From NCBI RefSeq assembly GCF_014652435.1, contig NZ_BMYU01000002.1, positions 62,001 through 126,000 of the forward strand: 64,000 nt of DNA. Reading direction: 5' to 3'. The notes below the pieces were generated by a model that saw nothing but the letters and a program-made list of their open reading frames with translations, searched no databases and was not told the origin of the DNA. A program made the translations under genes and the position numbers. This DNA is from Cognatundibacterium squillarum (GTDB lineage Bacteria > Pseudomonadota > Gammaproteobacteria > Burkholderiales > Burkholderiaceae_D). The number at the start of each line of letters is the position of its first letter. Within the stretch, counting starts at the first letter, position 1. Of the stretch, positions 1,807 to 25,381 are shown piece by piece.

Positions 1807-2307
1807 ATGAGAACCCCGAAATTTCCGGAATACAAATATTTGCATGGTGAAGCGGCCTGGCCGCTTTGGCTGAACATTTTACTGTTGTGCGGGTTGTTGT
1901 TGCTGATTCCGGCAATTTACTACGTACCGAAAAACTTCATATTTTTTATCGTGCCGTACGTGTTTATTCTGATCTTTCTTGCCCTTTGGCTCGCTCCGCG
2001 TGAAAAGATCATTCTCAGTCCGCGTTACATCGTCTGCGGCAAGACGGTGCTTTACTTCAGGAATATCCGCACAGTGAATATCCAGGCTGCGCATGGACGC
2101 TTGCGGCTGATCAGTGGCAGCGGAGAAGAGCTGACGATAGACAGAGAAAAATTCCCGACAAGTGCACGTAAAGAACACAAAATTGCAGCGAACAGACAGG
2201 CAAAATTCTGCAAGCTCGCGGATAAAATTCTGGCAAACGTCAGGCGCAGTGCGCCGGATGCAATAATCACAGGGGAAAGCAGTTTGAGGAAAAACAGCCA
2301 TGACTGA
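1807..2307 (+). CDS. Two-helix membrane protein of a radical SAM cassette
   Basis: Not recognised as a named family. Two hydrophobic helices near the N-terminus (about residues 18-40 and 45-62 from the ATG) are followed by a roughly 100-residue cytoplasmic part with alternating beta-type sequence (ILSPRYIVCG, RLRLISGSG), reminiscent of small PH-like membrane-associated domains. The end overlaps the start of the radical SAM gene by 8 nt, which indicates translational coupling and a shared role, perhaps anchoring or sensing. The start is uncertain: ATG 1807 has no clear Shine-Dalgarno, and a TTG at 1789 preceded by GAGAAG is an alternative. Confidence 0.7.
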   Translation: MRTPKFPEYKYLHGEAAWPLWLNILLLCGLLLLIPAIYYVPKNFIFFIVPYVFILIFLALWLAPREKIILSPRYIVCGKTVLYFRNIRTVNIQAAHGRLRLISGSGEELTIDREKFPTSARKEHKIAANRQAKFCKLADKILANVRRSAPDAIITGESSLRKNSHD

Positions 2308-4159
2308 GACAAAGGCCGTCAGTTGGCTGCCGCGCCGGCCTGCGGAGATTCATCAGCCAGCGCAGACTTATCAGCGCCATATCCATTTGCTGTACAGTCC
2401 GACGCTGGCCTGTAATTTATCCTGTCGCTATTGTTATCTGGGTGAGCAAACCAGTACCGCGCAAATTAAGCAGGATGCAGGTCGTGCGGTGGACACTCTG
2501 GCCTATGCACTGAACAAGCTGGAACAGGCACAAGTGCTGGCGTTTAATGTTTCATTGCATGGTGGTGAAGTGACGGTGATGCCACCGCCAGTGCTCGCGC
2601 AAATGTTTTCGCTGATCAGCAATTACTATCTGCAACATTTTGATGCCCTGAATGCGCTCGGCCATAAGAAAAATGCACCGCATATCAAAACAAATTTGTT
2701 TAAATTCGCCAGTCATTACGATTTATTTTGTCAGCACAAGGTATCGGTCAGTGCCAGCATTGATTTACCGCTCTCTCTGCATGCTAAATACCGTACTACC
2801 CGGCATGGGAAAGACTGGTCAGAACGGACGATAGAAAATTTACGCTTGCTGGCTGCCTATCCGCATGCCAAAAAAATCTCCGCGACGATATCACAGGAGC
2901 ATCTGCAGGATATACCAGCCTTTATCAATGATATCTGGTACATACACAGGGAGCTTGGTTTTGATATGAACCAGTTCAATCTGATGTTTGCATTTGCCTC
3001 GGAGCTGAATCAGCAGGATCAGGGCAGTCTGGTGCTGGAGCCGGCAAGCAGTGCGGCGCAGCTGGCGTTGTATGAAGCACTGCATGCAGAATTTACCGGT
3101 ACTGAACTCGAAGACGGGCTGAAGCGGCACTGGTTTGATGAATTTAAACCAAGCTATTGCACCAATTCTTATAACTGCGGCGAACGTTTTTATCTGTTGC
3201 AAAGCGATGGCAGTGTTTACTCTTGTGTGCGCGGGCAGGGTATCGCTGAGTTTTGTTATGGCAATATTTATACCGATAGTGTTGAAACTATCCTTGCCAA
3301 CGGCGCACGGCAGATTGCAGCAATCCATCAGCAATTCGGTATGGACCAGGATTGCGCCTCATGCGGAAGTTTGCCGCTGTGTAATACCGGGTGTCCGGTC
3401 GTGAAGTATCAGAGTAAGCAGGCGAAGTCTTACACCTGCGATCTGCAAAAACAAATTTATGCCGCGAATCCGCTTTCTTACCCGCTGGCTGAACCGGAAA
3501 AACAGCAAACGTATTTGCACAGTTATCTGCGTGGCATGCACCCCGCGCTGGCACTGACAACAGAACCACCGCAGCCGCCTGACAAGGTGCAACTGCCGAA
3601 TGACTTATATCAGGACAAAAACACCTTGCATGCGCTGATAGCGCAAGACCCGGTCTTGCAGCAACTGTACAGCGCAAACAATTTCTATCTGGAACTGAAT
3701 GAGGAATTGCTGCCGCTGAGTTCGCAACTGCTGAAAGCCCGGCGCGAACTCTATATCATTGCTGAGGGTGACCGCTGTGTAATCCATTTACCACGCGCAT
3801 TGTTTGCTGTTGCCTGTGATGAGCCCGTCAGAAATACGCTGTATCTGCAATTGCTGCGTGATACGCCGGTGGAATATGGCGATGAACAGCGTACCAAGCA
3901 GGCACATCTGTTCAGCTGGCAGTTGTACGCAGATTGCCTGTTACCCAGCGATAAAATGGGGCCGGAATTTGTGATGGCAGATCTGGCGCCATTATTAGCA
4001 ATGCACCGTCATTTGTTTATGCCCCGCGTACTGAACAATTTGTTTGTTACTACCCAGTATTTGCGTGATTACCATTATCAAAAGCAAAAAAATAATGCGT
4101 TCTATCATATACAGGCGATTAACCTGCCATTTCAAAATGCCGAATTTTATTATTTGTGA
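2300..4159 (+). CDS. Radical SAM/SPASM protein, putative peptide maturase
   Basis: A radical SAM enzyme of 619 residues. The CX3CX2C cluster that binds the SAM-cleaving [4Fe-4S] is at Cys38, Cys42 and Cys45 (CNLSCRYCY), followed by a barrel with a GGEVT strand. A Cys-rich SPASM region, ending in DCASCGSLPLCNTGC and a later Cys near TCDLQ, would hold auxiliary clusters at about residues 280-390. Such enzymes often modify ribosomal peptides or proteins. About 200 further residues follow the SPASM domain with no recognised fold, making it longer than typical maturases (about 400-480). It overlaps the upstream membrane-protein gene and sits 45 bp before a small gene with an Asn-repeat tail, its natural substrate candidate. 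That substrate relationship is inference. Confidence 0.85.
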   Translation: MTETKAVSWLPRRPAEIHQPAQTYQRHIHLLYSPTLACNLSCRYCYLGEQTSTAQIKQDAGRAVDTLAYALNKLEQAQVLAFNVSLHGGEVTVMPPPVLAQMFSLISNYYLQHFDALNALGHKKNAPHIKTNLFKFASHYDLFCQHKVSVSASIDLPLSLHAKYRTTRHGKDWSERTIENLRLLAAYPHAKKISATISQEHLQDIPAFINDIWYIHRELGFDMNQFNLMFAFASELNQQDQGSLVLEPASSAAQLALYEALHAEFTGTELEDGLKRHWFDEFKPSYCTNSYNCGERFYLLQSDGSVYSCVRGQGIAEFCYGNIYTDSVETILANGARQIAAIHQQFGMDQDCASCGSLPLCNTGCPVVKYQSKQAKSYTCDLQKQIYAANPLSYPLAEPEKQQTYLHSYLRGMHPALALTTEPPQPPDKVQLPNDLYQDKNTLHALIAQDPVLQQLYSANNFYLELNEELLPLSSQLLKARRELYIIAEGDRCVIHLPRALFAVACDEPVRNTLYLQLLRDTPVEYGDEQRTKQAHLFSWQLYADCLLPSDKMGPEFVMADLAPLLAMHRHLFMPRVLNNLFVTTQYLRDYHYQKQKNNAFYHIQAINLPFQNAEFYYL

Positions 4160-4204
4160 GCGCTGCTTATCCGGGTACCGGTGCCATACAGCGGAGGACA
4201 TAGT

Positions 4205-4651
4205 ATGGGCGTGACGCAGAGTGAAAGAATTGCATACACCGTTGAATGCTTTTTCAATGCGGCCAGGATTTCTGACGATACCGCCCGTACAGAACTGGAG
4301 CAAAGAGCTTGTCAATGGCTGCTGAGTTGTAACACCGGACGGTCATTTGCGATTTTGCACCGGCAAGCACTTTTTCTGTATCGCGATAAACTCAGTCCTC
4401 CGCTTCACTACGCCGCGCCACCGTCTGACGGCCCCAGTGTCTGGACTGATGGGAAAAAGATTTCACAACTGGATACAGCGCAATATCAGAATTCGCAGAC
4501 TTTACTGTTGCTGGGAAGTGCCGGACTGGTGCTGACGATGCCCGGGTTGAGCCAGGCAGAACAAAGAAAAGCTGAATACGAATTTTCCAGTAGTGTGAAT
4601 AGTAATAACAACAATAACAATAATAATAACAACAATAATAACAATGGCTGA
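4205..4651 (+). CDS. Small protein with a 14-Asn plus Gly C-terminus, candidate maturase substrate
   Basis: A 148-residue protein of unknown family. The first 60 residues look helical and leader-like (SERIAYTVECFF, TELEQRACQWLL). A middle section with Pro-rich and hydrophobic segments follows. The end is SSSVNS, 14 consecutive Asn and a terminal Gly. The start at 4205 was chosen over the ATG at 4181 because AGCGGAGGA lies 6 nt upstream. The Asn run mixes 8 AAT and 6 AAC codons irregularly, which suggests selection on the protein rather than simple slippage. It is the last gene of the cassette after the radical SAM enzyme, with a leader-plus-repeat layout like known radical SAM RiPP precursors. 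No known precursor family is recognised. Confidence 0.75.
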   Translation: MGVTQSERIAYTVECFFNAARISDDTARTELEQRACQWLLSCNTGRSFAILHRQALFLYRDKLSPPLHYAAPPSDGPSVWTDGKKISQLDTAQYQNSQTLLLLGSAGLVLTMPGLSQAEQRKAEYEFSSSVNSNNNNNNNNNNNNNNG

Positions 4652-11692: not shown

Positions 11693-12628
11693 ATGAAAGC
11701 AATATCCCGCGCAGTTTCTTTATCTCTGATTTCCGTAGCAGTACTGGCAGCCTGCGGTGGCGGCAGTGACAGTACACCGGCAGCACCGGGCGGTCCGCGC
11801 AGTGTGTCCATCAGCTTTGACATGATTGCAAATGGCGTTGCAGCAAAGTGCGGCACCCCGATCACCGGACTGGGCAGCAAATCCAGTACCGTGGATTTAC
11901 AAAACGCTTCCTTTTACGTGAGCAATATTAATTTCGTGGATGCTGCAGGCAATCTGACGCCTGTTACACTCGCCAGCAACGACTGGCAGTATGACAAAGT
12001 TGCACTGATCAATTTCAACGATGGCAGCAGTACCGCATGCGGTGGTAAAGCACAGGCAAGCAATGCCGTGATCACCGGTACCGTTCCGGCAGGTAATTAT
12101 GTCGGTATTCAGTATGAAATCGGCGTGCCGGAATCCCTGAATCACACCGACTACGCAAGCGCACCGAAACCACTGAATGTGCAGTCTATGGCCTGGAGCT
12201 GGACTTCCGGTCGTAAATTTATGCTGCTGGAAGTCAATCCGGTTGGCGGCGTTATCGTAACGCGCACCAATAACACCACCAATCCGCCAACCGTAACCAG
12301 TTCTACACAAGCATCGTGGTACACCCATCTGGGCGCAACCGGCTGCACATCCGATGCGACTAAAGGCACTTATGCCTGCACCAATGCAAACCGCATGCTG
12401 GTACGTCTGAACAGCTTTAATCCGGATACCCAGAAAATCACGCTGGATCTGAATGCAATGTACAACAATGTCGATCTGAGCTCCGATACGGCTGGTGCAC
12501 CGGGCTGTATGTCGGGCAAAACGGATACCGAATGCCAGGGTATTTTCTCCAACATGAAAATTGATCTGAACACCGGTGCGCCAGCGACGGCCGGTATCCA
12601 GTCTGTCTTTATCGCGAGAGCAAAATAA
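11693..12628 (+). CDS. MbnP-like metallo-mystery-pair copper protein (lipoprotein)
   Basis: A 311-residue lipoprotein with the lipobox LAAC at about residue 21. The mature part fits the MbnP / metallo-mystery-pair family: CGTPI, YVSNINFVD, WQYDKVALINF and ACGGK, with paired Cys (GCTSD, YACTN, GCMSG, ECQGI). In studied MbnP/MbnH pairs the di-heme partner oxidises a Trp of MbnP to kynurenine, creating a Cu(I) site. Candidate Trp residues lie in DWQYD, AWSW and SWYTH. The gene shares one base with its partner (TAATG overlap). A GGAATAG stretch precedes the ATG. It is the operon's penultimate gene. Confidence 0.87.
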   Translation: MKAISRAVSLSLISVAVLAACGGGSDSTPAAPGGPRSVSISFDMIANGVAAKCGTPITGLGSKSSTVDLQNASFYVSNINFVDAAGNLTPVTLASNDWQYDKVALINFNDGSSTACGGKAQASNAVITGTVPAGNYVGIQYEIGVPESLNHTDYASAPKPLNVQSMAWSWTSGRKFMLLEVNPVGGVIVTRTNNTTNPPTVTSSTQASWYTHLGATGCTSDATKGTYACTNANRMLVRLNSFNPDTQKITLDLNAMYNNVDLSSDTAGAPGCMSGKTDTECQGIFSNMKIDLNTGAPATAGIQSVFIARAK

Positions 12629-13812
12629 TGGTCAGCGCGATCTGTTTACTGATGCAACAGCGGATCGCCGTCTGTGCTGCGGCTGTGATGTTGGCAGCCT
12701 GCAGCGCAGGTGGTGAGGGCGGCAATCCTTCCGGCAACGGCCATCATCACGGCAGTACCGGCTTGCCTGCGGTGGATGGCTTTCCGGTGGCAGTGGTACC
12801 CGCTTCCAATCCGTATACAGAAGATAAGTTTCAGCTGGGCCGTGCGCTGTTCTATGACACACGTTTATCCGGCAACGGCACGCAGTCCTGTGCCAGCTGT
12901 CATCATCAGGACAAGGCATTTACCGATGGCCGGATAACGGCATTGGGCTCCACCGGCGAAGAACATCCGCGTAATGCGCAAGGGCTGGCCAATGTGGTGT
13001 ATCACGCCACACTGACCTGGGCGAACCCGGTCATGATTGATCTGGAACGTCAGATGGAAGTACCGATGTTCGGCGAACATCCGGTGGAAATGGGGATTAA
13101 CGACAGCAACAAAGCAACCGTGCTGGCCCGTCTGCAGAATGACACGGCGATGTATGGCTTGTTCCGCAAAGCCTTTCCGACCGATGCCGCACCGGTCAGC
13201 TTTGGCAATATCATCGCCGCCATCGCCACGTTTGAACGCGGCCTGATTTCCGCAGATTCGCGTTACGACCAGTATCTGCGCAAGCAAACCACACTCAGCG
13301 AATCCGAACTGCGCGGTTTGAATCTGTTTATGGGTGAAAAAGCAGAATGCTTCCATTGTCACGGCAGCTTTAACTTCAATGATCAGGTGCGCTACGTCGG
13401 CCTGAGTCAGGTGGACACACCGTTCCACAATACCGGCTTATATAACATCGACGGCAAAGGCGGTTTCCCTTTCCCGAATCGCGGCTTGTTCGAAGCAACT
13501 ACCAATCCCAAAGACATGGGTGCATTCCGCGCACCTAGCTTGCGCAATGTCGCTGTGACTGCGCCGTATATGCATGATGGTTCAGTGGCGACGCTGGAAG
13601 AAGTGCTGGATTTCTACGCTGCCGGTGGTCGCGTTATCCGCAGTGGTTTATACGCCGGAGATGGCCGTGTTAACCCGTATAAAAGCGGTCTGGTGAACCA
13701 GATCAACCTCACTGAACAAGACAAGGCCGATCTGGTCGCCTTCCTCAAAACCCTGACAGATCAGGGCTTCCTCACCAACCCGCGGTTTTCAAAACCTGCA
13801 ATCAGCCAATGA
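12628..13812 (+). CDS. MbnH-like di-heme cytochrome c peroxidase
   Basis: A 394-residue di-heme protein of the CcpA/MauG superfamily, in the MbnH branch that pairs with MbnP. Two heme c sites are seen: CASCHH about residue 90 and CFHCH about residue 242. The conserved YMHDGS near residue 318 provides a distal-side ligand region. The N-terminus carries a lipoprotein-type hydrophobic stretch ending LAAC. Expected role: oxidising its partner MbnP in the periplasm. The ATG overlaps the MbnP stop by one base, so translation is coupled. A strong terminator follows, ending the copper operon. Confidence 0.9.
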   Translation: MVSAICLLMQQRIAVCAAAVMLAACSAGGEGGNPSGNGHHHGSTGLPAVDGFPVAVVPASNPYTEDKFQLGRALFYDTRLSGNGTQSCASCHHQDKAFTDGRITALGSTGEEHPRNAQGLANVVYHATLTWANPVMIDLERQMEVPMFGEHPVEMGINDSNKATVLARLQNDTAMYGLFRKAFPTDAAPVSFGNIIAAIATFERGLISADSRYDQYLRKQTTLSESELRGLNLFMGEKAECFHCHGSFNFNDQVRYVGLSQVDTPFHNTGLYNIDGKGGFPFPNRGLFEATTNPKDMGAFRAPSLRNVAVTAPYMHDGSVATLEEVLDFYAAGGRVIRSGLYAGDGRVNPYKSGLVNQINLTEQDKADLVAFLKTLTDQGFLTNPRFSKPAISQ

Positions 13813-15008: not shown

Positions 15009-16463
15009 TTGTTTATCGTGCCCGCATCCACTCCACCTGATTCATCCCTTCCTTCCGCATCTTCCGGTGTCGATACAGGAATCAACCACGCCGATTTTAT
15101 GCGGCGTCATTTCAACCTGACAAAAATTTATCCTCTGGTACAGAGTGAGTTTGACAAGCGTCTTGCTGCCTGTACGGAACATGATCCTCTTGCGCTGAAG
15201 CAAATACGTCAGGGATTTCTGGCGGAACTGAATGCGCTGAAGACCAATGCAGAATGGGCGGAATTCACGATTGCGTTTTACGGTGACGTTGGTTGCGGAA
15301 AATCCAGCATTATCGAAGCATTACGCATTGTTCTGGCAGAAGCGGCGAAACAGGAAGAACGTCAGGCCTTTGTGGCAAGCAGTCAGGCCAGCACACTGAC
15401 GCTGGCCGGCTATCAGAAAGCCTTGCGCGCCCGGAATGCGACGCGGCAGGAACTGATGGCATTTCAGACCGAGCTGGGTGTGGTGGAACATCAGGCGAAG
15501 GTCGCAGAACTGAACGCGACTGAGCAGCGTCAGGCTCTGCGTCAGAAACTGGCGCAAAAGCTGGACAATGCTGCAATCTGGAACAAACTGCGCTACCGCC
15601 TGCGTCCGCCGCCGGAAAAACAGCAATTGCTGGAGATGGCGAAGCGCTGGAAAAATGAACGTGTGACCGAACGCCGCCGCATCATCAAGATGCGCGAGCA
15701 GTTACCGGCATTGCATGATCAGTCAGCCGTCACGGAAATCGTGCTGGCGCAATTCACCCGCAAACGCGACGCGCTGAAAAAAATCTGCGACGGCAATATC
15801 ATCGGCGATGGCGGCAAACCGCAAACCACGCAGCCGCAGTTTTACCATTTCGCCACCCGCTGGGGACGCTTCCGTATTACCGATCTCGGTGGTACCGGCC
15901 TGCCTTCTCAACTGGCGGCGATTCAGAATCTGCAAGCTTTAAGGCAGGCGCACGCAGTGTTTTATGTAGTCAATGATGCGATCATGCCGACGCCGGCCGC
16001 ACTGGAAAAACTGCGCAGACACCTGAACGACCAGACCGAAATCCGCCTGATCGTGAACTGGCAGGCGAATACGCTGGCGCAATGGAAGAAACGTCTGGAA
16101 TCGCCGAAAATCCAGCACCGCGTGCAGTCACTCGACACCATGATGCGCCAGCAATTCGGCGAGCACTATCACGGTATGCTGACGATTGCCGCCAAACCGG
16201 CCTTCTACTCGGTCGCAGCCTGCCTGCCGCCTTTCGGCAACGAGGAGCAGCAGCAACAGCACTTTTTAAGCCAGCACACACCGGAAGAACTGATGGCCTT
16301 GTCCGGCCTGAATACGCTGGTACAAACCCTGTGCAATAAGATGCTGCACAACGCCTCGGCCAAGGTGAGAAAAACGAATATCCATAAAGCCGACTGCCTG
16401 CTGCGCAACGCCATCATCGCCCTGAACAGCGCCCGCCACGATCAGCAACCGCAAGTCGCCTGA
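15009..16463 (+). CDS. P-loop GTPase-like protein with coiled-coil insertion
   Basis: Not a named family. It has 484 residues from a TTG start. A Walker A / G1 motif (GDVGCGKSS, residues 92-100) follows IAFY. A predicted long coiled coil (about 110-260) precedes the G3-like ITDLGGTGLP (Asp292, Gly294-295), then VFYVVNDAI and RLIVNWQA, where a G4 NKxD would sit. The pattern suggests a GTP- or ATP-binding switch protein related to large or septin-like GTPases, with the G4 motif altered. No membrane segment is seen. The start is weak: there is no Shine-Dalgarno at 15009, and GTG 15018 and ATG 15099 are alternatives. It precedes the triple-AAA gene by 651 bp. Confidence 0.72.
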   Translation: MFIVPASTPPDSSLPSASSGVDTGINHADFMRRHFNLTKIYPLVQSEFDKRLAACTEHDPLALKQIRQGFLAELNALKTNAEWAEFTIAFYGDVGCGKSSIIEALRIVLAEAAKQEERQAFVASSQASTLTLAGYQKALRARNATRQELMAFQTELGVVEHQAKVAELNATEQRQALRQKLAQKLDNAAIWNKLRYRLRPPPEKQQLLEMAKRWKNERVTERRRIIKMREQLPALHDQSAVTEIVLAQFTRKRDALKKICDGNIIGDGGKPQTTQPQFYHFATRWGRFRITDLGGTGLPSQLAAIQNLQALRQAHAVFYVVNDAIMPTPAALEKLRRHLNDQTEIRLIVNWQANTLAQWKKRLESPKIQHRVQSLDTMMRQQFGEHYHGMLTIAAKPAFYSVAACLPPFGNEEQQQQHFLSQHTPEELMALSGLNTLVQTLCNKMLHNASAKVRKTNIHKADCLLRNAIIALNSARHDQQPQVA

Positions 16464-17114
16464 ACTTTCCGCATCGGCGCGTACCTGATACGTGCCGCTG
16501 CGGATACTCGCTGACATGCACATCCCGACTGACTGACGTACTGAGCCTCAGTGTGAAAGATGACAGCTGTCTTTTGCCAGTGTATTTCCCGAGTCGCGGC
16601 TCAGCGCAGGTTTTTGAGTTTTCCGAAGCAGATGGAAATTTTTGTACATCGTACCGGCGTGTATCTATTACATATAGGCCTGCAAACTCTCGCAGGTCCA
16701 GAGTTTGTTGGCAAAGATTAAAGCGCCAAGGGTTGCTTGTAAATAATGTAATTTTCTGAAACTTCAATATATCGGGAAGCACTTAGTTTGCTTCCCGATT
16801 AGTTGTTACCGCAACTCAGATTTTATAATCCGGAAAATTTCCTGTCACTTTCATGTAAGAACAACCCTATTGTTGTCGTTACTTTCCCCATTGCTCCGTC
16901 AGTACATTAAAATTAGAGCTAGAAAAATTACTTATTTTTACAATTAATCTCTACCACAAAGATTGGTTGTTGAATTTTTTATGCTGCGAATTTTTTTGCA
17001 AATGAAGCAATCATTTCTTTCATTAAAAAATCGAACCAATTTCAGATCCTAGCCGATCTATATAAACCAAAAACACAAAACTAACGTGTGAATTTTCGAA
17101 ACTTGGAGAAAAAT
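16464..17114. other. Intergenic stretch with terminator-like hairpin
   Basis: No convincing gene is seen in these 651 bases. The second half is strongly A+T-rich and must hold the promoter for the AAA gene, though no box stands out. A hairpin at 16771-16799 is described separately. Confidence 0.5.
16771..16799 (+). terminator. Perfect hairpin between GTPase-like and AAA genes
   Basis: ATCGGGAAGC / GCTTCCCGAT, a perfect 10-bp stem with a 9-nt loop, followed by TAGTTGTT. The T-rich tail is broken, so it is a probable but not classical terminator about 300 nt after the GTPase-like stop. Confidence 0.5.
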
Positions 17115-20100
17115 ATGACCGACTGGGATGATGAAATTCCTCAACCAATCCGGGAGCGGGTAAAGAAAAGTGCGGCTTCGCTTGAAGTTGCCGCGCAAAA
17201 AGTTGAAGAGGTGCGCAACAGACTTAACGCGATTCAAGCTGAGGCTGAGGTTGCTCTGAATGCTGTGAAAGAAGGCATGGCTCCGGCCATTCAGCAAAGT
17301 AAAGATGCTATGTTTAAAAAGCGACTCAGTGAAGAACGCTGGGGTAGCGCTCTGAAACTGACTGGCCTGAATACCGCATTCAATGGTGCGCAATATGCTG
17401 CTTACGCATATTTTTTGCTCTTTTTGTATTCTTTTGGGATATTCACTAATCTCGGGCTTTTCCCCGTCTATATTTACCATCTCCTGACCAGTTTCAAAGG
17501 AATAGTATTTTTTATCGCACCATATTTCTTATTGGTCCGGCAAAGTCGGCGTTTGGCTGCTCGAGCAGCTCTGAAAGCTTCATTCGCACATTTAGACCAG
17601 ACCTTAGCTAAGGCTGAAGTACAGATATCAGGAAATGCTACTACTGGTAAAGCAACACCGGACGCCCTCGCTTTGTATCCAACTGCCGATGGTAATTGCG
17701 TTGGGTACTACCCCCCTTTCGTGAATGATCTCGTTCCCACAATGCTTAACGGGCCTGGTGCTGTACATATTCTGCTTACAGCAAGCTCAGAAAAAAGTCA
17801 GCAGCGACTGAAATTAGGCTACAAGCATAATGCTCATGAATTAATCGTTTCTGGCGATGCTTCTCTAAATAAATATCCGGAATTTAATCGTTTAATTGCA
17901 GCCAAGCTCGAATCTATCCGTCCAGTGATGAATACGCTGGCGGATGGATTTATAGAGTTTAAATCCGTCAAAGACGCGTATGCGATCTGTAAAATTCAGT
18001 ATGAGAAAGATCTTGAACTTGCAAAAGCCTGGTCGCAAATCGCTTTACCAGACGAAACCAGCAACAAATTAATCAAGCTGATTGAGCTATTTACCAGCGA
18101 ATCTGATGTCAGCCCAAAAGGCATTTTGCTGTATGGTCCTCCGGGAACTGGTAAAACCAGTATCGCAAATGTATTAGCTAAAACGGGGAATTTATTTTTC
18201 CAGAAGATCAGCGAAAGTGATCTGAAAGGACAGTATCAGGGTCATACAGGACCAAAAGTACAGGCAATTTTCTCAGAACTGAGAAAACATCAACCAGCTA
18301 TTTTATTTGTTGATGAATGTGAAGGTGTATTCAAGTCACGCTCAAGCAGTAATGCTACGGGCAACGTCAATTTTGACACCGAAATGCTGAAAGAATTCCT
18401 GGTGCAATGGGGTGGCATTGCAAGTGACAGCAAGACTAAGATCCTCGTTATTGGTGCCACGAATCTTCACGAAAATATTGATTCTGCAGTCATGAGCCGT
18501 TTCACAACCCGCATTGAAATTGGGCTGCCTGATAAACGTTGCCGCGAAAAAATCTTGCGAAACGAAATGAAAAAAGCAAAGTTAATTGTTCCTGATGATC
18601 TGAGTAAAGTCATCAGAGACACAACTGGTTTTGCCGGACGTGATTTAGAAACACTTGTCGTCTCTTTAGCCGCAGATCTTACTGGTCGCAATGACCCTAC
18701 CGAGGCGGAAATACTCAAAGAAATTCGCCTTGTACGAGGTAAGAGTTCTACGGACGTACTTGATCAGACCTGGGACGACATTGTCTTACCCGAGAACATC
18801 AAAAACCAATTTATCAACCTCGGTAAAATGTTAAAGAGTCATGAGGCGCTGAAAAAATCCGGAATTGATGTTCCTTCGGGCGCATTATTATGGGGACCGC
18901 CCGGGACTGGTAAAACTCAACTGGCTAAAGTACTGGCAGGTGAATCCGGGTTAGGCTATATCGCAGCCTCGACAGCTGAAATTCGTAAAAGCAACCTTGG
19001 TGAATCAGGCATTGCTGTTAAGAACTTGTTTGAACGTGCCCGCTCGCAATCGCCTTGCATTTTATTTATTGACGAAATTGAAATTCTTGCGCCGTCACGC
19101 TCGGGCGATCAGGCTAACTCTGTTTCGACTGAAATTATTGGCCAGTTGCTACAAGAAATGGACGGCATTAAGAGTCAGAATGGTATGGTCTTTGTTCTTG
19201 CAGCAACCAATCATCCTGCCTTACTGGACTCAGCTGTGGCTTCACGTCTTGAGCCCAAATTAGAGTTACCTCTGCCAGACCTCGCAACCCGAACAGCAAT
19301 CCTTAAAATTATCCTTAAGAATAAGCCGATCGACTTCGATCTGGAACACGGGGCTCATCAAATCGCCTTACTAACAGAAGGAAAGTCAGGACGGGACTTG
19401 AACACGCTGGTTAAGGGGGCCGGAAGCCGGGCGACAACGCGTGCACTGACAACGGGCGAATTAATCGATGAGGCAAATCCCGTCGTGCTGCAGTTAGCCG
19501 ATATGACCAGTCAACTGGACGAGGCGCAAGAAGTTGTGAAAGTAGCTGATTTGAGTTGGGAGGATATTGTACTGCCTGACAGTGTCAAGGATCAGTTCGT
19601 CACTCTTGGTAAGATGCTGAAAAATGCTGAGGCATTACGCAGTTCCGGCATTGACGCTCCGCGCAGTGCATTACTGTATGGCCCTCCGGGCACTGGTAAA
19701 ACACAATTGGCCCGTGTACTGGCTTCTCAATCAGGCTTGTCTTTCTTTGCACCGACGACAGCAGAATTACGTCAGAAATACATCGGACATTCCGGTGCTG
19801 CTGTACGCGACATGTTTGAGAAGGCACGTAAAATGTCCCCCTGTATTTTATTTATTGATGAAATGGAGATACTTGCAGGACAGCGCACAGGCTCGGACAA
19901 CGAAGCGACAACCGAAGAGATCGTTGGACAGTTTTTGCAGGAAATGGATGGTATTAAGAGTCAGGCCGGACAAGTATTTGTGCTTGGTGCGACAAATCAT
20001 CCGGAGTTTTTAGATAGTGCAATCCTTTCACGCTTTCTTCAAAAAATTGCAATTCCTTTACCAGAGCTGCAAGCACGGCAGGCTATCCTTAAAAATCTTC

Positions 20101-20336
20101 TCCGTAATAAACCAGTAAGTGCGGATATTGATGTAATCGTACTGGATCTTGCCGCACAAACCGAAGGTTATTCTGGCCGGGATTTACGTAATCTTGTCGA
20201 TGGTGCTGCTAACAGTGCGACAACACGTGCTATGAAATCCAGTGAGGCAATTGATCCGGTCAATAATCCGATTCGTATTACCAAAGAAGATTTGATGCAA
20301 GCATTGTCTGCCCGACAGGTAACACAATTAGTGTGA
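17115..20336 (+). CDS. Membrane protein with three tandem AAA+ ATPase modules
   Basis: A 1073-residue protein with a short N-terminal coiled coil (about 15-60) and two hydrophobic segments (about 90-150). Three AAA+ modules follow: GPPGTGKT at about residues 339, 591 and 853 and Walker B FVDECE, FIDEIE and FIDEME at about 398, 651 and 912. Each module ends with an Arg-containing SRF/SRL-type segment. Modules 2 and 3 are near-duplicates (each begins WxDIVLP, then GxDxPxxALLxGPPGTGKTQLA), and module 1 is more divergent. AAA+ proteins remodel or unfold other proteins; three modules plus membrane helices is unusual. The start at 17115 has TTGGAG 8 nt upstream. A terminator follows at 20387. The substrate is unknown. 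Confidence 0.85.
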   Translation: MTDWDDEIPQPIRERVKKSAASLEVAAQKVEEVRNRLNAIQAEAEVALNAVKEGMAPAIQQSKDAMFKKRLSEERWGSALKLTGLNTAFNGAQYAAYAYFLLFLYSFGIFTNLGLFPVYIYHLLTSFKGIVFFIAPYFLLVRQSRRLAARAALKASFAHLDQTLAKAEVQISGNATTGKATPDALALYPTADGNCVGYYPPFVNDLVPTMLNGPGAVHILLTASSEKSQQRLKLGYKHNAHELIVSGDASLNKYPEFNRLIAAKLESIRPVMNTLADGFIEFKSVKDAYAICKIQYEKDLELAKAWSQIALPDETSNKLIKLIELFTSESDVSPKGILLYGPPGTGKTSIANVLAKTGNLFFQKISESDLKGQYQGHTGPKVQAIFSELRKHQPAILFVDECEGVFKSRSSSNATGNVNFDTEMLKEFLVQWGGIASDSKTKILVIGATNLHENIDSAVMSRFTTRIEIGLPDKRCREKILRNEMKKAKLIVPDDLSKVIRDTTGFAGRDLETLVVSLAADLTGRNDPTEAEILKEIRLVRGKSSTDVLDQTWDDIVLPENIKNQFINLGKMLKSHEALKKSGIDVPSGALLWGPPGTGKTQLAKVLAGESGLGYIAASTAEIRKSNLGESGIAVKNLFERARSQSPCILFIDEIEILAPSRSGDQANSVSTEIIGQLLQEMDGIKSQNGMVFVLAATNHPALLDSAVASRLEPKLELPLPDLATRTAILKIILKNKPIDFDLEHGAHQIALLTEGKSGRDLNTLVKGAGSRATTRALTTGELIDEANPVVLQLADMTSQLDEAQEVVKVADLSWEDIVLPDSVKDQFVTLGKMLKNAEALRSSGIDAPRSALLYGPPGTGKTQLARVLASQSGLSFFAPTTAELRQKYIGHSGAAVRDMFEKARKMSPCILFIDEMEILAGQRTGSDNEATTEEIVGQFLQEMDGIKSQAGQVFVLGATNHPEFLDSAILSRFLQKIAIPLPELQARQAILKNLLRNKPVSADIDVIVLDLAAQTEGYSGRDLRNLVDGAANSATTRAMKSSEAIDPVNNPIRITKEDLMQALSARQVTQLV

Positions 20337-20600: not shown

Positions 20601-21017
20601 ATGTCGCTCTCAGATGATAAAGAATCAAATTCTGTGCTCGAGTTAATTGCTGCATGGCTCAGTCGCAAGTCAGCCTTGGTACTGATTCTGATGATGATTC
20701 AGCTTGGATTGCTCCTGGCAATGTATAACTTATCTGCGTCGATAGGTAAGCAGCAGCTGAGTCAAAGTAGCCGCGGTACGGCCAGCGCTGTTTGTGGACA
20801 GTACGAAGTCGTCTTCTCGGCCAGTACCAGCATGCAAGATGTGCAGCAATGGGCGCTGAACTTTAACGCCACAATTGTGAATGGACCCAATAGCCGTGGT
20901 GCCTTTGAAATGGAAATACCCGGACTGACACTGCCGGAAACTCGTCAAGCATTTGGGTCGCTGGCAATCGATATCCGGATTAACCCGCTCTGTGGATCAT
21001 CGGAGCGTCAGGAATGA
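20601..21017 (+). CDS. Single-helix membrane protein with Cys-bounded extracytoplasmic domain
   Basis: A 138-residue protein. The first 25 residues are cytoplasmic, one membrane helix follows (about 25-47), then an extracytoplasmic domain bounded by Cys65 and Cys131. Inside it, STSMQDVQQW, TIVNGPNSRGAFEM and DIRINPLC match the end of the anti-sigma factor encoded at 24096-24764 (SATIEDLTRI, QVVAGPDAKGYYRI, EIKPADDC), where the two Cys are again exactly 66 residues apart. It is thus a paralogous sensory or ligand domain without the anti-sigma part. It shares an ATGA overlap with the SulP-like gene. The exact role is unknown. Confidence 0.75.
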   Translation: MSLSDDKESNSVLELIAAWLSRKSALVLILMMIQLGLLLAMYNLSASIGKQQLSQSSRGTASAVCGQYEVVFSASTSMQDVQQWALNFNATIVNGPNSRGAFEMEIPGLTLPETRQAFGSLAIDIRINPLCGSSERQE

Positions 21018-22615
21018 ACAAGAATAAGGGTATGTCACAAGTAATTGCCGATTGCGCGATCGGAGGACTGGCTGCGCTGATTTATGTCGGTGAATATCTC
21101 GGGCAAGGTGCTATCGCGAATAAGGCATTTAATACCGGTTCAGTGACGGCACTCATGACCGCAGCAATCGGTACGCTGTTAGTCATTTTGTTTTCAGCAC
21201 GTCGAAATCCACTCACAGGGCCACGATTCCTGTCCGTTGTTTGCTACGCCATGATTCTCGAGTACGCCTTGACGTTGCCAGCCATCAAAGTAGGTGGCGC
21301 CATGTCTGCGTTTATCGTTGCATCTCTCTGCGTCACTTTCTCAGGGGTCATACTCCTCGTTATTGGCTACATGAACTGGACGGATCGACTGCGCTCTTTC
21401 ATGTCGATCCCTGCCTTGTCTGCACTGGCTTTTATCGTTGCAACGACGACGATTTCCGGACAAATTTCTGGTATGAATCAATGCTCAGAGAGCGTTGCCT
21501 GGCCAGCACTGGCAGTAGCATCCACGGTGATTGCCATTTCCTTTGGCATCAAATACAGGCTGCAACCCGGAACAATGCTATACCGGAGTCGCTTATTTAT
21601 CAGTATCGTGATCGGCTCTCTGGTCTACTTTGCCTGGCGAAACTACGCACCAACCCCCGCTTTGTGTAGCACCGTCAGCCAGATACATGGCGGTGAAATT
21701 GCTAACGCACTATTGGGGTTCTGGCGGTGGCCGTGGCAAAAACTGGCGTTTTTATCGGATATCCAAGTGATCCTGACATTATTTTCAGGCAGTGCGATTC
21801 TTGCATTGCTGTGTCTGATCGATACGCTTTCTGCGGCTTCTTCGCTTGCGAGCGATGAAGGTCAACCCGATGCGATGGTGCGGAACGAATTGCTAGCCAA
21901 TGCATGGGGCAATACTGTATTCGGGACACTCGGTTTGTTGCCTATCTCTATCTCATTATCCCGAAGCAGAACAATCTCTGAGCTCAAACCGGCAGACAGC
22001 AAAATACCCGCTATTTCTCATTCTGCTTTTCTGCTATTGCTGATTTTCTTCCTGATCGGATTGCAATGGCCGTTACTCGATTATTTACCAAAAGCAGTTA
22101 TCGCCGGGACTTTAGTGGTCGTCTCGGTCGAAATGCTGGATGAAAAATCTGTACTGTTATGGCGTACAGCACTTGGTGCATCGAAAGCACGTAAGGCACT
22201 GGTGAACGGACTTTGGATTTTTTTACTTGCGGTAAGTATTGCAGTATTGATGGCGATCGGCCCATGGTCAAAATTAGCCGTCACGGTTGCCTTTCTGGCA
22301 GCGGTCATTGTCTCGCTAACCGGTTTGCTCCTCGCACCAAAGCAGAAAACTCCAAACAAAGGTGTTTTTAGCGGCAGACTTCACTTTTTGAACATTGGGT
22401 CTCATATGCGGCGCTGGAAAGCTGGTGAGCATCGCAGTATTGATTTATCGATGACTCAGGCAATTGACTTTACAGCAGCATGCGCCATACGTGACATTAC
22501 CCGTGCCCAAGCGAGGAATACCCAGATTTTGATTGGCGAGAACACAGGAAAAGAAGTTTCTGAAATTCTGGAAGTGCTTTGTCCTGAAAGCTTAAAACCT
22601 TACCGCACGGAGTAA
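21014..22615 (+). CDS. SulP/STAS-like membrane transporter
   Basis: A 533-residue polytopic protein with about 11-12 hydrophobic helices across residues 10-445 (for example GGLAALIYVGEYLG, LIIFFLIGLQWPLL). A short C-terminal soluble part resembles a STAS domain (SIDLSMTQAIDFTAACAI). The best fit is the SulP family of anion transporters, though helices 1-3 lack strong signature motifs, so the substrate is unknown. It begins within the preceding gene's stop (ATGA) and is followed after 4 nt by the caspase-like gene, so the three genes form a translationally coupled operon. Not a housekeeping sulfate permease context. Confidence 0.72.
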   Translation: MNKNKGMSQVIADCAIGGLAALIYVGEYLGQGAIANKAFNTGSVTALMTAAIGTLLVILFSARRNPLTGPRFLSVVCYAMILEYALTLPAIKVGGAMSAFIVASLCVTFSGVILLVIGYMNWTDRLRSFMSIPALSALAFIVATTTISGQISGMNQCSESVAWPALAVASTVIAISFGIKYRLQPGTMLYRSRLFISIVIGSLVYFAWRNYAPTPALCSTVSQIHGGEIANALLGFWRWPWQKLAFLSDIQVILTLFSGSAILALLCLIDTLSAASSLASDEGQPDAMVRNELLANAWGNTVFGTLGLLPISISLSRSRTISELKPADSKIPAISHSAFLLLLIFFLIGLQWPLLDYLPKAVIAGTLVVVSVEMLDEKSVLLWRTALGASKARKALVNGLWIFLLAVSIAVLMAIGPWSKLAVTVAFLAAVIVSLTGLLLAPKQKTPNKGVFSGRLHFLNIGSHMRRWKAGEHRSIDLSMTQAIDFTAACAIRDITRAQARNTQILIGENTGKEVSEILEVLCPESLKPYRTE

Positions 22616-22619
22616 AAAC

Positions 22620-24026
22620 ATGGCAGACCGCCGGAAAATACTGAAAAAGTCACTATGCGCACTGGCTGTATACAGCCTGAGTACATCCCTCGCTTTAGCT
22701 AATGCATCCACACCAAAGAAAGTCGCTCTTGTCATCGGCAACGCAGCCTACGCCAGCAATGAAAAACTGAAGAATCCAGTTTCTGACGCTACCTTGACGG
22801 TTAATAGTCTGAAGCAACTCGGGTTTGCCACCACACTGGCAACGGATCGTACCGCTGCACAACTCAAAAGCGACTTGCAGACTTTCTCGCTTGTCGCAAA
22901 AGATGCGGATATCGCTCTGCTGTTCTACGCAGGTCACGGCATTGCTGTCGATAACATTAACTACCTTATTCCAATTGATCAACGCTTATCCACACTGAAA
23001 TCTCTGGATCTCAAGCGGGATGGCATTTCGTTACGCTGGATTGAAAGCGTTCTGGCACAGAGCAATGCACAGGTATCCGTTCTGATCATTGATGCCTGCC
23101 GTAATCCGCTGATGCGGGGCGCACCGACTCAGGGTATGGTTGATCCTGCGACGCCACCGCACGGGACACTGACATTCTATTCCACCGCACCGGGGACGCA
23201 GGCAGGCGATGGCTCTGGCAAGAACAGCGAATTTTCGCTGGCGTTTAACCGCAATATCCTGAAACAGGATCTCAGCCTGATGCAGGCGATCTTGGCTACA
23301 CAAGCCGACGTCAGTAAGGCTACCGGTGATACGCAAATCCCCTGGGTCAACAGTGGTTTGGTCAATGATGTTCAGCTTTCCACAGCAAAACCCTTAGCCA
23401 AGTTATCAAAAACTGATAAGAACACGCCGCTGGCGGGAGTACAGCGCGGCACCGAAACAAAATCTGAACCCGCTGCCTTGCAAAAGTACTGGGATGAAAA
23501 TCTCGCACGACTGGACGAAGCAATCCAGTACAACGCGATGAATTTTGATGTCAATGGCAAAGTCACTCTGGAAAAAAGAGCGAAAACGGGTGATGTACTG
23601 GCGCTAACGACGCTGGGACTGGTCTATGCGACGCCCGAACAAGTCAGTATGAAAACCGTGCATACCGGATATGGACTGGAATCCAAGCCAGTCAAAAAGG
23701 GCAATGGTGTCGTTCCCTATAACCCGGTACTGGCCGTGAAATATCTCTCGCAGGCAGCCGCCAAACATTTTCCGGTAGCGCAGACCCTGCTGGCTGAACT
23801 ATTGATTGAAGCGCCCAAAGGGGTTCCAAGAGATTATCAGCGTGCCGAAAGCTTACTCAAGGAAGCCGCGAGTACCGGATATGGCCGTGCACGTCTTGAT
23901 TTGCTGGATTTAAATGTCCGTCGCGGCAATTACAGTCCAGAGGAGCTGGCGAAAGAGTTAAGGAATAACAGCAGTACGATTAAAAATTATATGGACCGGT
24001 GGAGTAAACCTCAATCACCTAAATAG
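22620..24026 (+). CDS. Exported caspase-like (C14) peptidase with Sel1-like C-terminus
   Basis: A 468-residue protein with an N-terminal Lys/Arg-rich signal sequence (1-28, ALANA). Then comes a caspase (peptidase C14) fold: KVALVIGNAAY, FYAGHG with catalytic His106, and VLIIDACRNP with catalytic Cys160. Its last 100 residues contain Sel1-like repeat sequence (KYLSQAAAK, AESLLKEAASTGYG), which often mediates protein binding. It would act outside the cytoplasm. CGGAGTAAAAAC gives the Shine-Dalgarno, 4 nt after the transporter stop. The convergent sigma/anti-sigma pair makes the anti-sigma factor a natural candidate substrate; this is inference. Confidence 0.88.
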   Translation: MADRRKILKKSLCALAVYSLSTSLALANASTPKKVALVIGNAAYASNEKLKNPVSDATLTVNSLKQLGFATTLATDRTAAQLKSDLQTFSLVAKDADIALLFYAGHGIAVDNINYLIPIDQRLSTLKSLDLKRDGISLRWIESVLAQSNAQVSVLIIDACRNPLMRGAPTQGMVDPATPPHGTLTFYSTAPGTQAGDGSGKNSEFSLAFNRNILKQDLSLMQAILATQADVSKATGDTQIPWVNSGLVNDVQLSTAKPLAKLSKTDKNTPLAGVQRGTETKSEPAALQKYWDENLARLDEAIQYNAMNFDVNGKVTLEKRAKTGDVLALTTLGLVYATPEQVSMKTVHTGYGLESKPVKKGNGVVPYNPVLAVKYLSQAAAKHFPVAQTLLAELLIEAPKGVPRDYQRAESLLKEAASTGYGRARLDLLDLNVRRGNYSPEELAKELRNNSSTIKNYMDRWSKPQSPK

Positions 24027-24054
24027 TCGTTTTCCGGTCCATAGCGATCTTGAT

Positions 24055-24092
24055 AATCATCCTGGTCATCCAAAATGAAGACCGGGAGGATT
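24055..24092. terminator. Possible hairpin between convergent caspase and anti-sigma genes
   Basis: AATCATCCTGGTC and GACCGGGAGGATT pair with two mismatches around an 11-nt loop, with TTTGTT after the right arm. It may terminate one or both convergent operons; the evidence is weak. Confidence 0.35.
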
Positions 24093-24095
24093 TGT

Positions 24096-24764
24096 TCACA
24101 GTGACTTGTGTGCCTGACTGCAATCGTCGGCGGGTTTGATTTCGGTCGCTATATCCTTCAACAAAATAACGCCATCGTCCGGCAAGCTGGTTTGTCCGAC
24201 GATACGGTAGTAACCCTTAGCGTCAGGTCCTGCTACCACTTGCATCTGTCCTTGCGTCAATATGCGCGTTAAATCTTCTATCGTCGCAGACGACTTCAGG
24301 CGCACAAGTATTGCCGGGCATTGCGTTGTAATGCCTCCCCTTGTGTCAGTTTGAGGCTCAATTTGTGATACGGGCTTGTTATAGAGCCACACCAGTCCAC
24401 CGCTCTGTGCAATGATAACGACCGTTGCCAATACCGGCATTGCTGCACGCAAGGGCGAAAACCATTGTCCCAACCACGAAAACCAGCGTGATACAGGTTG
24501 TGATTGTTCGCTCGCAGCCGGCGATGCCTCCTGACTTTGCCGGGCGAGTTCCCTGAATTTCAGCCATGCGGTATCTTCGTTTTGCGCGATACGCTGCTCA
24601 AGGCGCAAGTTTTCCAGTAAAGCAATCAGTCGTGCATCTCCTGCCAATGAAGGATCCTCAGAGAGTGCCTGACGCAGGCTTTGTAACTCAGCATCTGTTA
24701 ACAATCGTTCCAGCTGGGTCAGCAACAGTGCCTCTTCTTTTGATACGGGTATGTTTTCGCTCAT
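24096..24764 (-). CDS. Transmembrane anti-sigma factor with Cys-bounded domain
   Basis: A 222-residue protein. The helical N-terminal cytoplasmic part (1-105) would bind the sigma factor. One membrane helix (about 107-128) follows, then a periplasmic domain between Cys149 and Cys215. It lacks the zinc-finger HxxxCxxC of zf-HC2 anti-sigma factors. The periplasmic domain repeats the one in the 20601 protein with identical 66-residue Cys spacing. The start at 24764 overlaps the sigma stop (ATGA), and CGGAGGA lies just upstream, so the two are co-translated. An upstream in-frame ATG at 24791 is rejected for lack of a Shine-Dalgarno. Confidence 0.8.
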   Translation of the reverse strand: MSENIPVSKEEALLLTQLERLLTDAELQSLRQALSEDPSLAGDARLIALLENLRLEQRIAQNEDTAWLKFRELARQSQEASPAASEQSQPVSRWFSWLGQWFSPLRAAMPVLATVVIIAQSGGLVWLYNKPVSQIEPQTDTRGGITTQCPAILVRLKSSATIEDLTRILTQGQMQVVAGPDAKGYYRIVGQTSLPDDGVILLKDIATEIKPADDCSQAHKSL

Positions 24765-25381
24765 ACATCCTCCGAATGAATACCCATGCAACGCTTCAGC
24801 TTTTTAACCGCTTCGTTGATACGACTTTTAACAGTTCCCTCGGGAATACCAAGCATCAGCGCTGTATCTGCTTGCCTTAAATCACCCAGTACACAACGAA
24901 TCACTTCACTTAATTTCGGCGTCAAATGATCAACACATCGTTGTAAACGCTGTACTAACTGAAGATTTTCCAAAGCGTCATGAATCGGATCATCGTCTTC
25001 TTTCGGCATGAGTGACTCATACATCGTATCGTCTGAGCAATCGTCCTGGTTCGAAGTGATCAGGTCACGCAACAAAATCTCATCCTTGTGCTGTTCAAGC
25101 ATATCGAGCAAACGACGAAACGCGACTGTTCTTGCCAGGAAACGAATGAGCTCTGCTCTGAAGAGTTCAGTATGGACTGGGTGAACAGATGAGAACTGTC
25201 CAAGCTGATCGCCCCATAATTGCTTAAACGTCTGCATGACGGCGTCTTCCAGCAATTGATGCGGGATCTTCGGAAACCGGTATCCGAGCACGCGCAACAT
25301 GGTGCTTCTCGCATGCTGAAAAAACTGGCGCATCTCGTCAGGAGACGTTGCCAAATGATCTAAAAAAGGGCGCAGCGACAT
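24761..25381 (-). CDS. ECF-family RNA polymerase sigma factor
   Basis: A 206-residue sigma factor. The N-terminal half has the sigma-2 pattern (LEDAVMQTFKQLWG). The C-terminal half has sigma-4 with the helix-turn-helix LTPKLSEVIRCVLGDLRQADTAL, then GIPEGTVKSRINEAVKKLKR. It is a cytoplasmic regulator that directs polymerase to target promoters and is held by the anti-sigma factor encoded next, with which its stop overlaps. A long acidic linker (DDCSDDTMYES) lies between the domains. The promoter region to its right is shared with divergent lipoprotein genes. Likely targets are the caspase operon and these lipoproteins; this is inference. Confidence 0.87.
   Translation of the reverse strand: MSLRPFLDHLATSPDEMRQFFQHARSTMLRVLGYRFPKIPHQLLEDAVMQTFKQLWGDQLGQFSSVHPVHTELFRAELIRFLARTVAFRRLLDMLEQHKDEILLRDLITSNQDDCSDDTMYESLMPKEDDDPIHDALENLQLVQRLQRCVDHLTPKLSEVIRCVLGDLRQADTALMLGIPEGTVKSRINEAVKKLKRCMGIHSEDV

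Follow-up and report, generated by a model that had tools for sequence, protein, structure and literature searches.

A locus of five genes in Cognatundibacterium squillarum, at positions 20601–25381 of the 64,000-nucleotide stretch of DNA analysed here (hereafter the window), encodes an extracytoplasmic function (ECF) sigma factor, a one-helix anti-sigma factor with a prodomain-like outer domain, a caspase with a predicted export signal (open reading frame 3, ORF3), a SulP-like transporter (ORF2) and a small single-helix protein (ORF1). We propose that this locus is a proteolysis-controlled ECF sigma/anti-sigma module whose protease, an exported paracaspase-like enzyme, takes the position that a subtilase has in related modules, a reading to which we assign a probability of about one half. 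The proposal draws on gene linkage, homology, the class of the protease encoded beside the anti-sigma factor, the distribution of an Arg-Gly motif and a MALT1-like active site, all read from sequence.

A caspase in the subtilase position beside the anti-sigma factor

At E ≤ 0.01, 22 of 250 genomes of the order gave a match to a profile of the prodomain-like domain, and at E ≤ 1e-4 a similar profile matched 11 of 229 genomes of the class, the source genome being counted in both. Four of the 28 matches in the order search were the window and Acidovorax proteins, and two of the 13 in the class search were those of the window; all other matches were examined together with their neighbourhoods, some of them on short contigs. 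Three (L121, L146 and L147) were by reading not anti-sigma factors and were dropped before counting. Among the 34 anti-sigma factors from these searches, a subtilase was encoded beside 23 and a caspase beside four (the window, Acidovorax, L102 and L145), and none had both. With five caspase loci found only through SulP added, the 39 anti-sigma factors comprised 23 with a subtilase, nine with a caspase and, again, none with both. An initial motif search for subtilases was too strict and found none; Pfam confirmed 10 of the 10 subtilases tested, which then served to build a profile that picked up the remaining ones. No neighbouring protease was found at L105, L106, L107, L133, L134, L138 or L140, the contigs of L138 and L140 being 3.1 and 5.7 kb long. 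These sequence counts support the view that the caspase occupies the position usually held by a subtilase beside the same type of anti-sigma factor.

The clusters with a subtilase (family S8) share with the window locus the sigma factor, the one-helix anti-sigma factor with its prodomain-like domain and the adjoining protease gene, whereas the window-type locus has a caspase, an Arg-Gly pair in the anti-sigma linker and the added ORF1 and SulP. Locus L145 (6695–8851) consists of a sigma factor, an anti-sigma factor without the Arg-Gly pair and a shorter caspase without Sel1 repeats. Because of these differences, L145 may represent a second, independent entry of a caspase into the protease slot.

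The caspase resembles human MALT1

ORF3 (22620–24026, plus strand) matched Peptidase_C14 (PF00656, E 2.2e-31, 109.8 bits against a cut-off of 21.4) and carries C-terminal Sel1 repeats. At E ≤ 1, Pfam returned Peptidase_C14, Sel1, TPR_19, a chance BACOVA_N match and nothing else, and ORF3 was the sole C14 match in its own genome. The catalytic residues His106 (22935–22937) and Cys160 (23097–23099) were invariant in 7/7 aligned homologues, and profile and dyad together place the protein in C14. Its N-terminus reads as a hydrophobic export-type signal, and the signals of the window and Acidovorax caspases carry twin arginines, as in the twin-arginine translocation (Tat) motif. The exported caspase-like peptidase with this dyad, claimed in an earlier note on the window, is borne out by the C14 match and the dyad, and the N-terminal signals suggest that it would indeed be exported.

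In a profile search, human MALT1 came out as the closest relative of solved structure (E 3e-20), the match spanning the caspase domain. The predicted structure agreed: the 34 best Foldseek rows were MALT1 (E 3e-12 to 2e-9), with 20–24% identity in the structural matches. The acidic S1 residues of MALT1 are described as Asp365, Asp462 and Glu500 (PMC4357240). With MALT1 residue numbers counted along the alignment from the catalytic residues, these positions align with Asp56, Asp158 and Asp197 of ORF3, all invariant in 7/7 homologues; the enzyme thus has the acidic S1 pocket for a P1 arginine seen in MALT1, a feature that is general to C14B and hence not diagnostic. In MALT1-type paracaspases, immunoglobulin and death domains flank the caspase domain; Pfam found neither in ORF3 at E ≤ 1. 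The likeness lies in the best solved relative, the His/Cys dyad, the three acidic S1 positions and a proposed R|G site, whereas the window enzyme differs in being bacterial, exported (as predicted) and equipped with Sel1 repeats. The cleavage consensus given for MALT1 is LxP/SR|G (PMC4659944), and basic P1 residues are reported to be preferred by orthocaspases and metacaspases as well (PMC6426788, PMC8283722).

The PADLOC caspase profile also matched ORF3, weakly (E 4.5e-8). This match would fit a cell-death or damage device in which the ECF sigma factor induces a leaky transporter together with a caspase that kills the cell, cell death being a role often discussed for prokaryotic caspase homologues (PMC3501461). 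The export-type signal argues against such a device, which would also leave the likeness of ORF1 to the anti-sigma factor and the mutual exclusion of S8 and caspase unexplained; we consider it very unlikely.

An Arg-Gly pair accompanies the caspase

Alignments revealed an Arg-Gly pair, the motif at which cleavage by a MALT1-like enzyme would be anticipated. In the anti-sigma factor of the window, it lies in the linker between helix and outer domain (24336–24341, minus strand; R151-G152 when numbered from 24791) and is the proposed site-1 cleavage point. A helix-to-domain Arg-Gly was present in 8/9 caspase-linked anti-sigma factors and 4/30 others (Fisher p 6e-5), in 5/6 and 4/30 with Pandoraea counted once (p 0.0018), and in 3/4 and 4/30 when only the 34 domain-search loci were used, without those found through SulP (p 0.02); these p values are not corrected for sequence relatedness, and because the profiles for the domain derive from caspase-linked proteins with their Arg-Gly pairs, matches carrying that pair are favoured in both groups. 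The four pairs among the other anti-sigma factors were situated at the membrane edge (two), nearly touching the first strand (one) and in register (one, L133). Arginine frequency in the linker was equal in the caspase-linked and other anti-sigma factors (0.065 and 0.069).

ORF1 carried the pair in 7/7 proteins (Arg58-Gly59 in the window, 20772–20777, plus strand), within the low-confidence linker 49–63 of its model, where it is a proposed cleavage site. Behind the caspase domain, it occurred in 8/9 linked caspases, L145 ending there, and its position was invariant in the 7/7 aligned. In ORF3 this is Arg276-Gly277 (23445–23450), in the linker from the caspase domain to the Sel1 repeats, where the model is at its least confident (residues 260–288); we propose it as a self-processing site. 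Judging from these models, the Arg-Gly linkers of ORF1 and the caspase are probably disordered. Among 13 unlinked C14 matches, 10 could be scored and three aligned too poorly; 3/10 had Arg-Gly behind the domain, including a close paralogue, compared with 8/9 linked caspases (p 0.02). Shuffling of five caspase linkers gave a joint value of 6e-4 for their Arg-Gly, a result that the unlinked caspases weaken.

A second, closely related Paraburkholderia caspase (L160, 3711–5249) also has Arg-Gly behind its domain; sigma factor, anti-sigma domain and SulP matches were absent in the 9 kb examined.

ORF1, the anti-sigma factor and the transporter

The sigma factor (24761–25381, minus strand) scored 44.9 bits against TIGR02937 (cut-off 42.9) and matched Sigma70_r4_2 (E 2e-10), region 4 being present, which identifies it as an ECF sigma factor. 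The ATG of the anti-sigma gene (24096–24764, minus strand) at 24764 overlaps the sigma stop, and an upstream TTG at 24791 is the listed ORF start. This sigma-coupled gene encodes a cytoplasmic part, one membrane helix and an outer domain, as expected of an anti-sigma factor; in its cytoplasmic part, Pfam found no known anti-sigma domain at E ≤ 1. At this threshold there was no Pfam family for ORF1, ORF2 or the anti-sigma factor, and the last is therefore named from position and architecture alone. Profile and coupling agree with the convergent sigma/anti-sigma pair described in the earlier note.

ORF1 (20601–21017, plus strand) has a single hydrophobic helix and a predicted periplasmic beta-alpha-beta-beta-alpha-beta domain, and is homologous to the anti-sigma factor (E 7e-6, in one single comparison). 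On sequence, it is a paralogue of the helix and periplasmic domain of the anti-sigma factor, that is, of its C-terminal half. The label "single-helix protein" previously given to it holds for the helix; its identity is corrected here to a copy of the outer half of the anti-sigma factor. A profile built from both domains found no third copy in the genome (E ≤ 0.01).

The predicted fold of this domain resembles subtilisin prodomains with weak scores, subtilisin propeptides and the I9 inhibitor POIA1 being among its best fold matches, and Pfam gave a weak Fervidolysin_NPro-like match (E 0.087, below the cut-off). The modelled likeness is weak, and we do not claim membership of the I9/subtilisin prodomains. 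The same propeptide, POIA1 and Fervidolysin_NPro-like matches would suit a reading in which the prodomain-like domains are inhibitors, so that the anti-sigma factor and ORF1 bind and silence the caspase, and release, not cutting, is the signal; we regard this as improbable.

ORF2 (21014–22615, plus strand) had no match to PF00916 or any other Pfam family at E ≤ 1. It is 26% identical to a Paraburkholderia homologue that matches PF00916 (E 7.7e-28) and STAS (E 3.2e-5). Its relatives place ORF2 near SulP, as a probable SulP-like transporter that has diverged from the family and ends in a degenerate STAS-like tail; for the SulP likeness named in the earlier note, support comes from relatives rather than from a Pfam match of its own.

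The five genes are linked in other Burkholderiales

All five ORFs were found in the window in the composition and order previously described. ATGA overlaps join ORF1 to ORF2 and the sigma to the anti-sigma gene, and the ORF1-SulP-caspase group and the sigma/anti-sigma group are separate and convergent. One ECF-type promoter pattern, sought upstream of the genes, was not found.

Among the 194 further genomes sampled from its family, neither ORF2 nor the anti-sigma factor had a relative at E ≤ 1e-5; the locus is rare and patchy, with 1/195 sampled family genomes, its own, carrying it. When ORF2 was compared with 399 genomes of the order, two relatives stood out (54% identity, E 5e-177, full length; and 28%, E 3e-19, residues 26–414), the remaining 44 matching genomes scoring E 1e-7 or worse. 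Two more stood out among 150 genomes from the family of the residues 26–414 relative (E ~1e-169), 26 others scoring 8e-12 or worse, and 180 genomes from the family of the full-length relative yielded, besides that relative, two weak partial matches only. A scan of named genomes gave six loci outside the window, four of them apparently the relatives just described, from Acidovorax sp. Leaf160, Paraburkholderia metrosideri, Pandoraea nosoerga, P. communis, Pandoraea sp. ASV26 and a Pandoraea metagenome-assembled genome. Sigma factor, anti-sigma factor, ORF1, SulP and caspase lay together within ~10 kb in 7/7 genomes, window included, the genomes counted being those whose SulP matches a system member at E < 1e-15 along most of its length, with G1211 left out of the count. 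The co-occurrence in other Burkholderiales genera on which the earlier note had staked its proposal was thus observed.

The SulP match in G1211 (E 1.3e-35) lies at a contig end, and no partner genes were found in its 10.5 kb of sequence; G892 (E 2e-23) and G1244 (E 7e-22) gave further SulP matches outside the seven. Weaker matches elsewhere, L008 among them, were judged from their scores to be generic SulP, and at those of G569, G328 and G289 BLASTP found no sigma factor, anti-sigma factor, ORF1 or caspase match. A contig scan with ORF2 alone as query returned nothing, nor did tblastn against plasmids with ORF2 and its Paraburkholderia homologue; caspases on plasmids gave 240 records.

Gene order varied: the genes run in one direction in Paraburkholderia, are divergent in Acidovorax and convergent in the window, and lie ~4 kb apart in Pandoraea. 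The patchy occurrence, in one of the 195 own-family genomes, would be expected of chance neighbours without a common function. Linkage in all seven genomes despite the rearranged order argues against this and, on sequence, exceeds chance; we consider mere coincidence barely credible.

Between Paraburkholderia and Pandoraea, identity was 55–63% for ORF1, SulP and caspase, 26–27% for the sigma factor and 28–30% for the anti-sigma factor, which suggests that ORF1, SulP and caspase travel as a trio. That the trio occurs with quite different sigma/anti-sigma pairs, and that in the window it stands apart from the pair and faces it, would also be consistent with a sigma factor that merely switches on the transporter and caspase genes, the anti-sigma factor never being a target of the caspase, which would act on different envelope proteins; metacaspase genes are, moreover, found in operons of many kinds (PMC3501461). 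Against this stand the mutual exclusion of caspase and subtilase beside this type of anti-sigma factor in the loci examined and the Arg-Gly linker that accompanies the caspase, and we judge it rather unlikely.

A membrane protein and a lipoprotein-like protein, both without Pfam match, were present in 6/7 system genomes and at L102, and are probably further parts of the system. They are encoded at L061 (6725–8278 and 8284–9177), with homologues in L063–L068 and L102; a single-sequence search for the membrane protein was negative in the genome of the window. In the Pandoraea metagenome-assembled genome (L066, 6780–8811), the membrane-protein gene is split over two overlapping frames by a frameshift or an assembly error. 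L102 has the sigma factor, anti-sigma factor, caspase and both of these proteins; SulP and ORF1 were not found in its 16 kb.

Neighbouring genes in the window

Upstream of the locus, on the plus strand, are genes for a GTPase-like protein (15009–16463; LeoBC profile, E 2.4e-54) and a protein with a triple AAA module (17088–20336; IetA, E 1.3e-105). In the related loci compared, the AAA protein was unmatched and the GTPase gave a marginal match at most. Further upstream on the same strand, a radical SAM protein (2300–4159, with sub-threshold Radical_SAM and SPASM matches) and a 156-residue protein with a long C-terminal asparagine run (4181–4651) form a possible modified-peptide pair, and 11693–13812 encodes an MbnP-like protein (E 2.4e-33) and its di-haem MauG-type partner (E 1.4e-47).

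Proposed mechanism and significance

In the module that we propose, the anti-sigma factor would hold the sigma factor in the cytoplasm and display its prodomain-like domain in the periplasm on a flexible Arg-Gly linker. Some envelope or transport cue would activate the caspase, which might also cut its own Arg-Gly linker in the process; the active enzyme would then cut the anti-sigma linker (site 1), and a general site-2 protease would release the sigma factor. ORF1, whose translation is coupled to that of the SulP-like transporter, would serve as a further substrate or as a transporter-tied decoy, and SulP as the sensor. We infer export, on the basis of the N-terminal signals, as well as cleavage, the order of events, the site-2 step and the roles of SulP and ORF1. 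The core of the proposal is action of the caspase on the anti-sigma factor in the periplasm, which we hold at even odds. A more specific version, in which the paracaspase replaced the subtilase as dedicated site-1 protease, cuts the anti-sigma factor, its own linker and the ORF1 decoy at the shared Arg-Gly, and thereby lets the state of the transporter set sigma activity, is tentative; it would be a prokaryotic parallel to MALT1, which likewise removes negative regulators at R|G bonds.

Several observations weigh against action on the anti-sigma factor. The L133 anti-sigma factor, with Arg-Gly in register, belongs to a genome without a C14 match (G1100), and the caspase-linked anti-sigma factor of L145 has no Arg-Gly, its caspase ending right after the domain. 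Because the caspase-linker difference has p 0.12 with Pandoraea counted once, that motif is weak on its own; acidic S1 residues are common throughout C14B enzymes; and the scores for the prodomain-like fold are weak, unrelated folds ranking among the best rows as well. Furthermore, because the sigma and anti-sigma factors diverge far more than the trio, the caspase has not always been tied to one anti-sigma lineage. The surface-signalling interpretation put forward earlier is nevertheless partly supported by the co-occurrence, the caspase in the subtilase position and the Arg-Gly of the anti-sigma linker; its account of ORF1 and its claim of novelty had to be revised.

The sequence of events would resemble that of RsiV and RsiP in that removal of a one-helix anti-sigma factor would free an ECF sigma factor, and would differ in having a caspase as the site-1 enzyme. 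RseA is of the same regulated intramembrane proteolysis type. Metacaspase operons with sigma-70 genes have been described from Myxococcus, Anaeromyxobacter, Haliangium, Sorangium, Ralstonia and Fibrobacter (PMC3501461). They likewise link a caspase homologue to a sigma factor; the section that describes them names no anti-sigma factor, SulP or single-helix partner. Because such operons are already in print, the earlier statement that no system with this composition was known can hold only for the full composition. Among the open-access papers searched, none came up that combines a caspase and SulP with a sigma/anti-sigma pair. Group ECF54, as outlined in PMC8999054, has subtilase, carboxypeptidase and CHAT proteins alongside and works without an anti-sigma factor.

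To our knowledge, neither natural role nor substrates have been established for most bacterial caspase homologues, and 70 of 217 metacaspase operons were reported to be without assignable function (PMC3501461). The locus itself offers a candidate substrate, site and read-out, namely the anti-sigma factor, its Arg-Gly linker and sigma-dependent transcription. If the proposal is true, a caspase would be tied to signal transduction instead of cell death, and the substitution would suggest that a protease of one fold can take over the signalling position of another. The locus would also provide a simple bacterial setting in which to test R|G cutting of the MALT1 kind.

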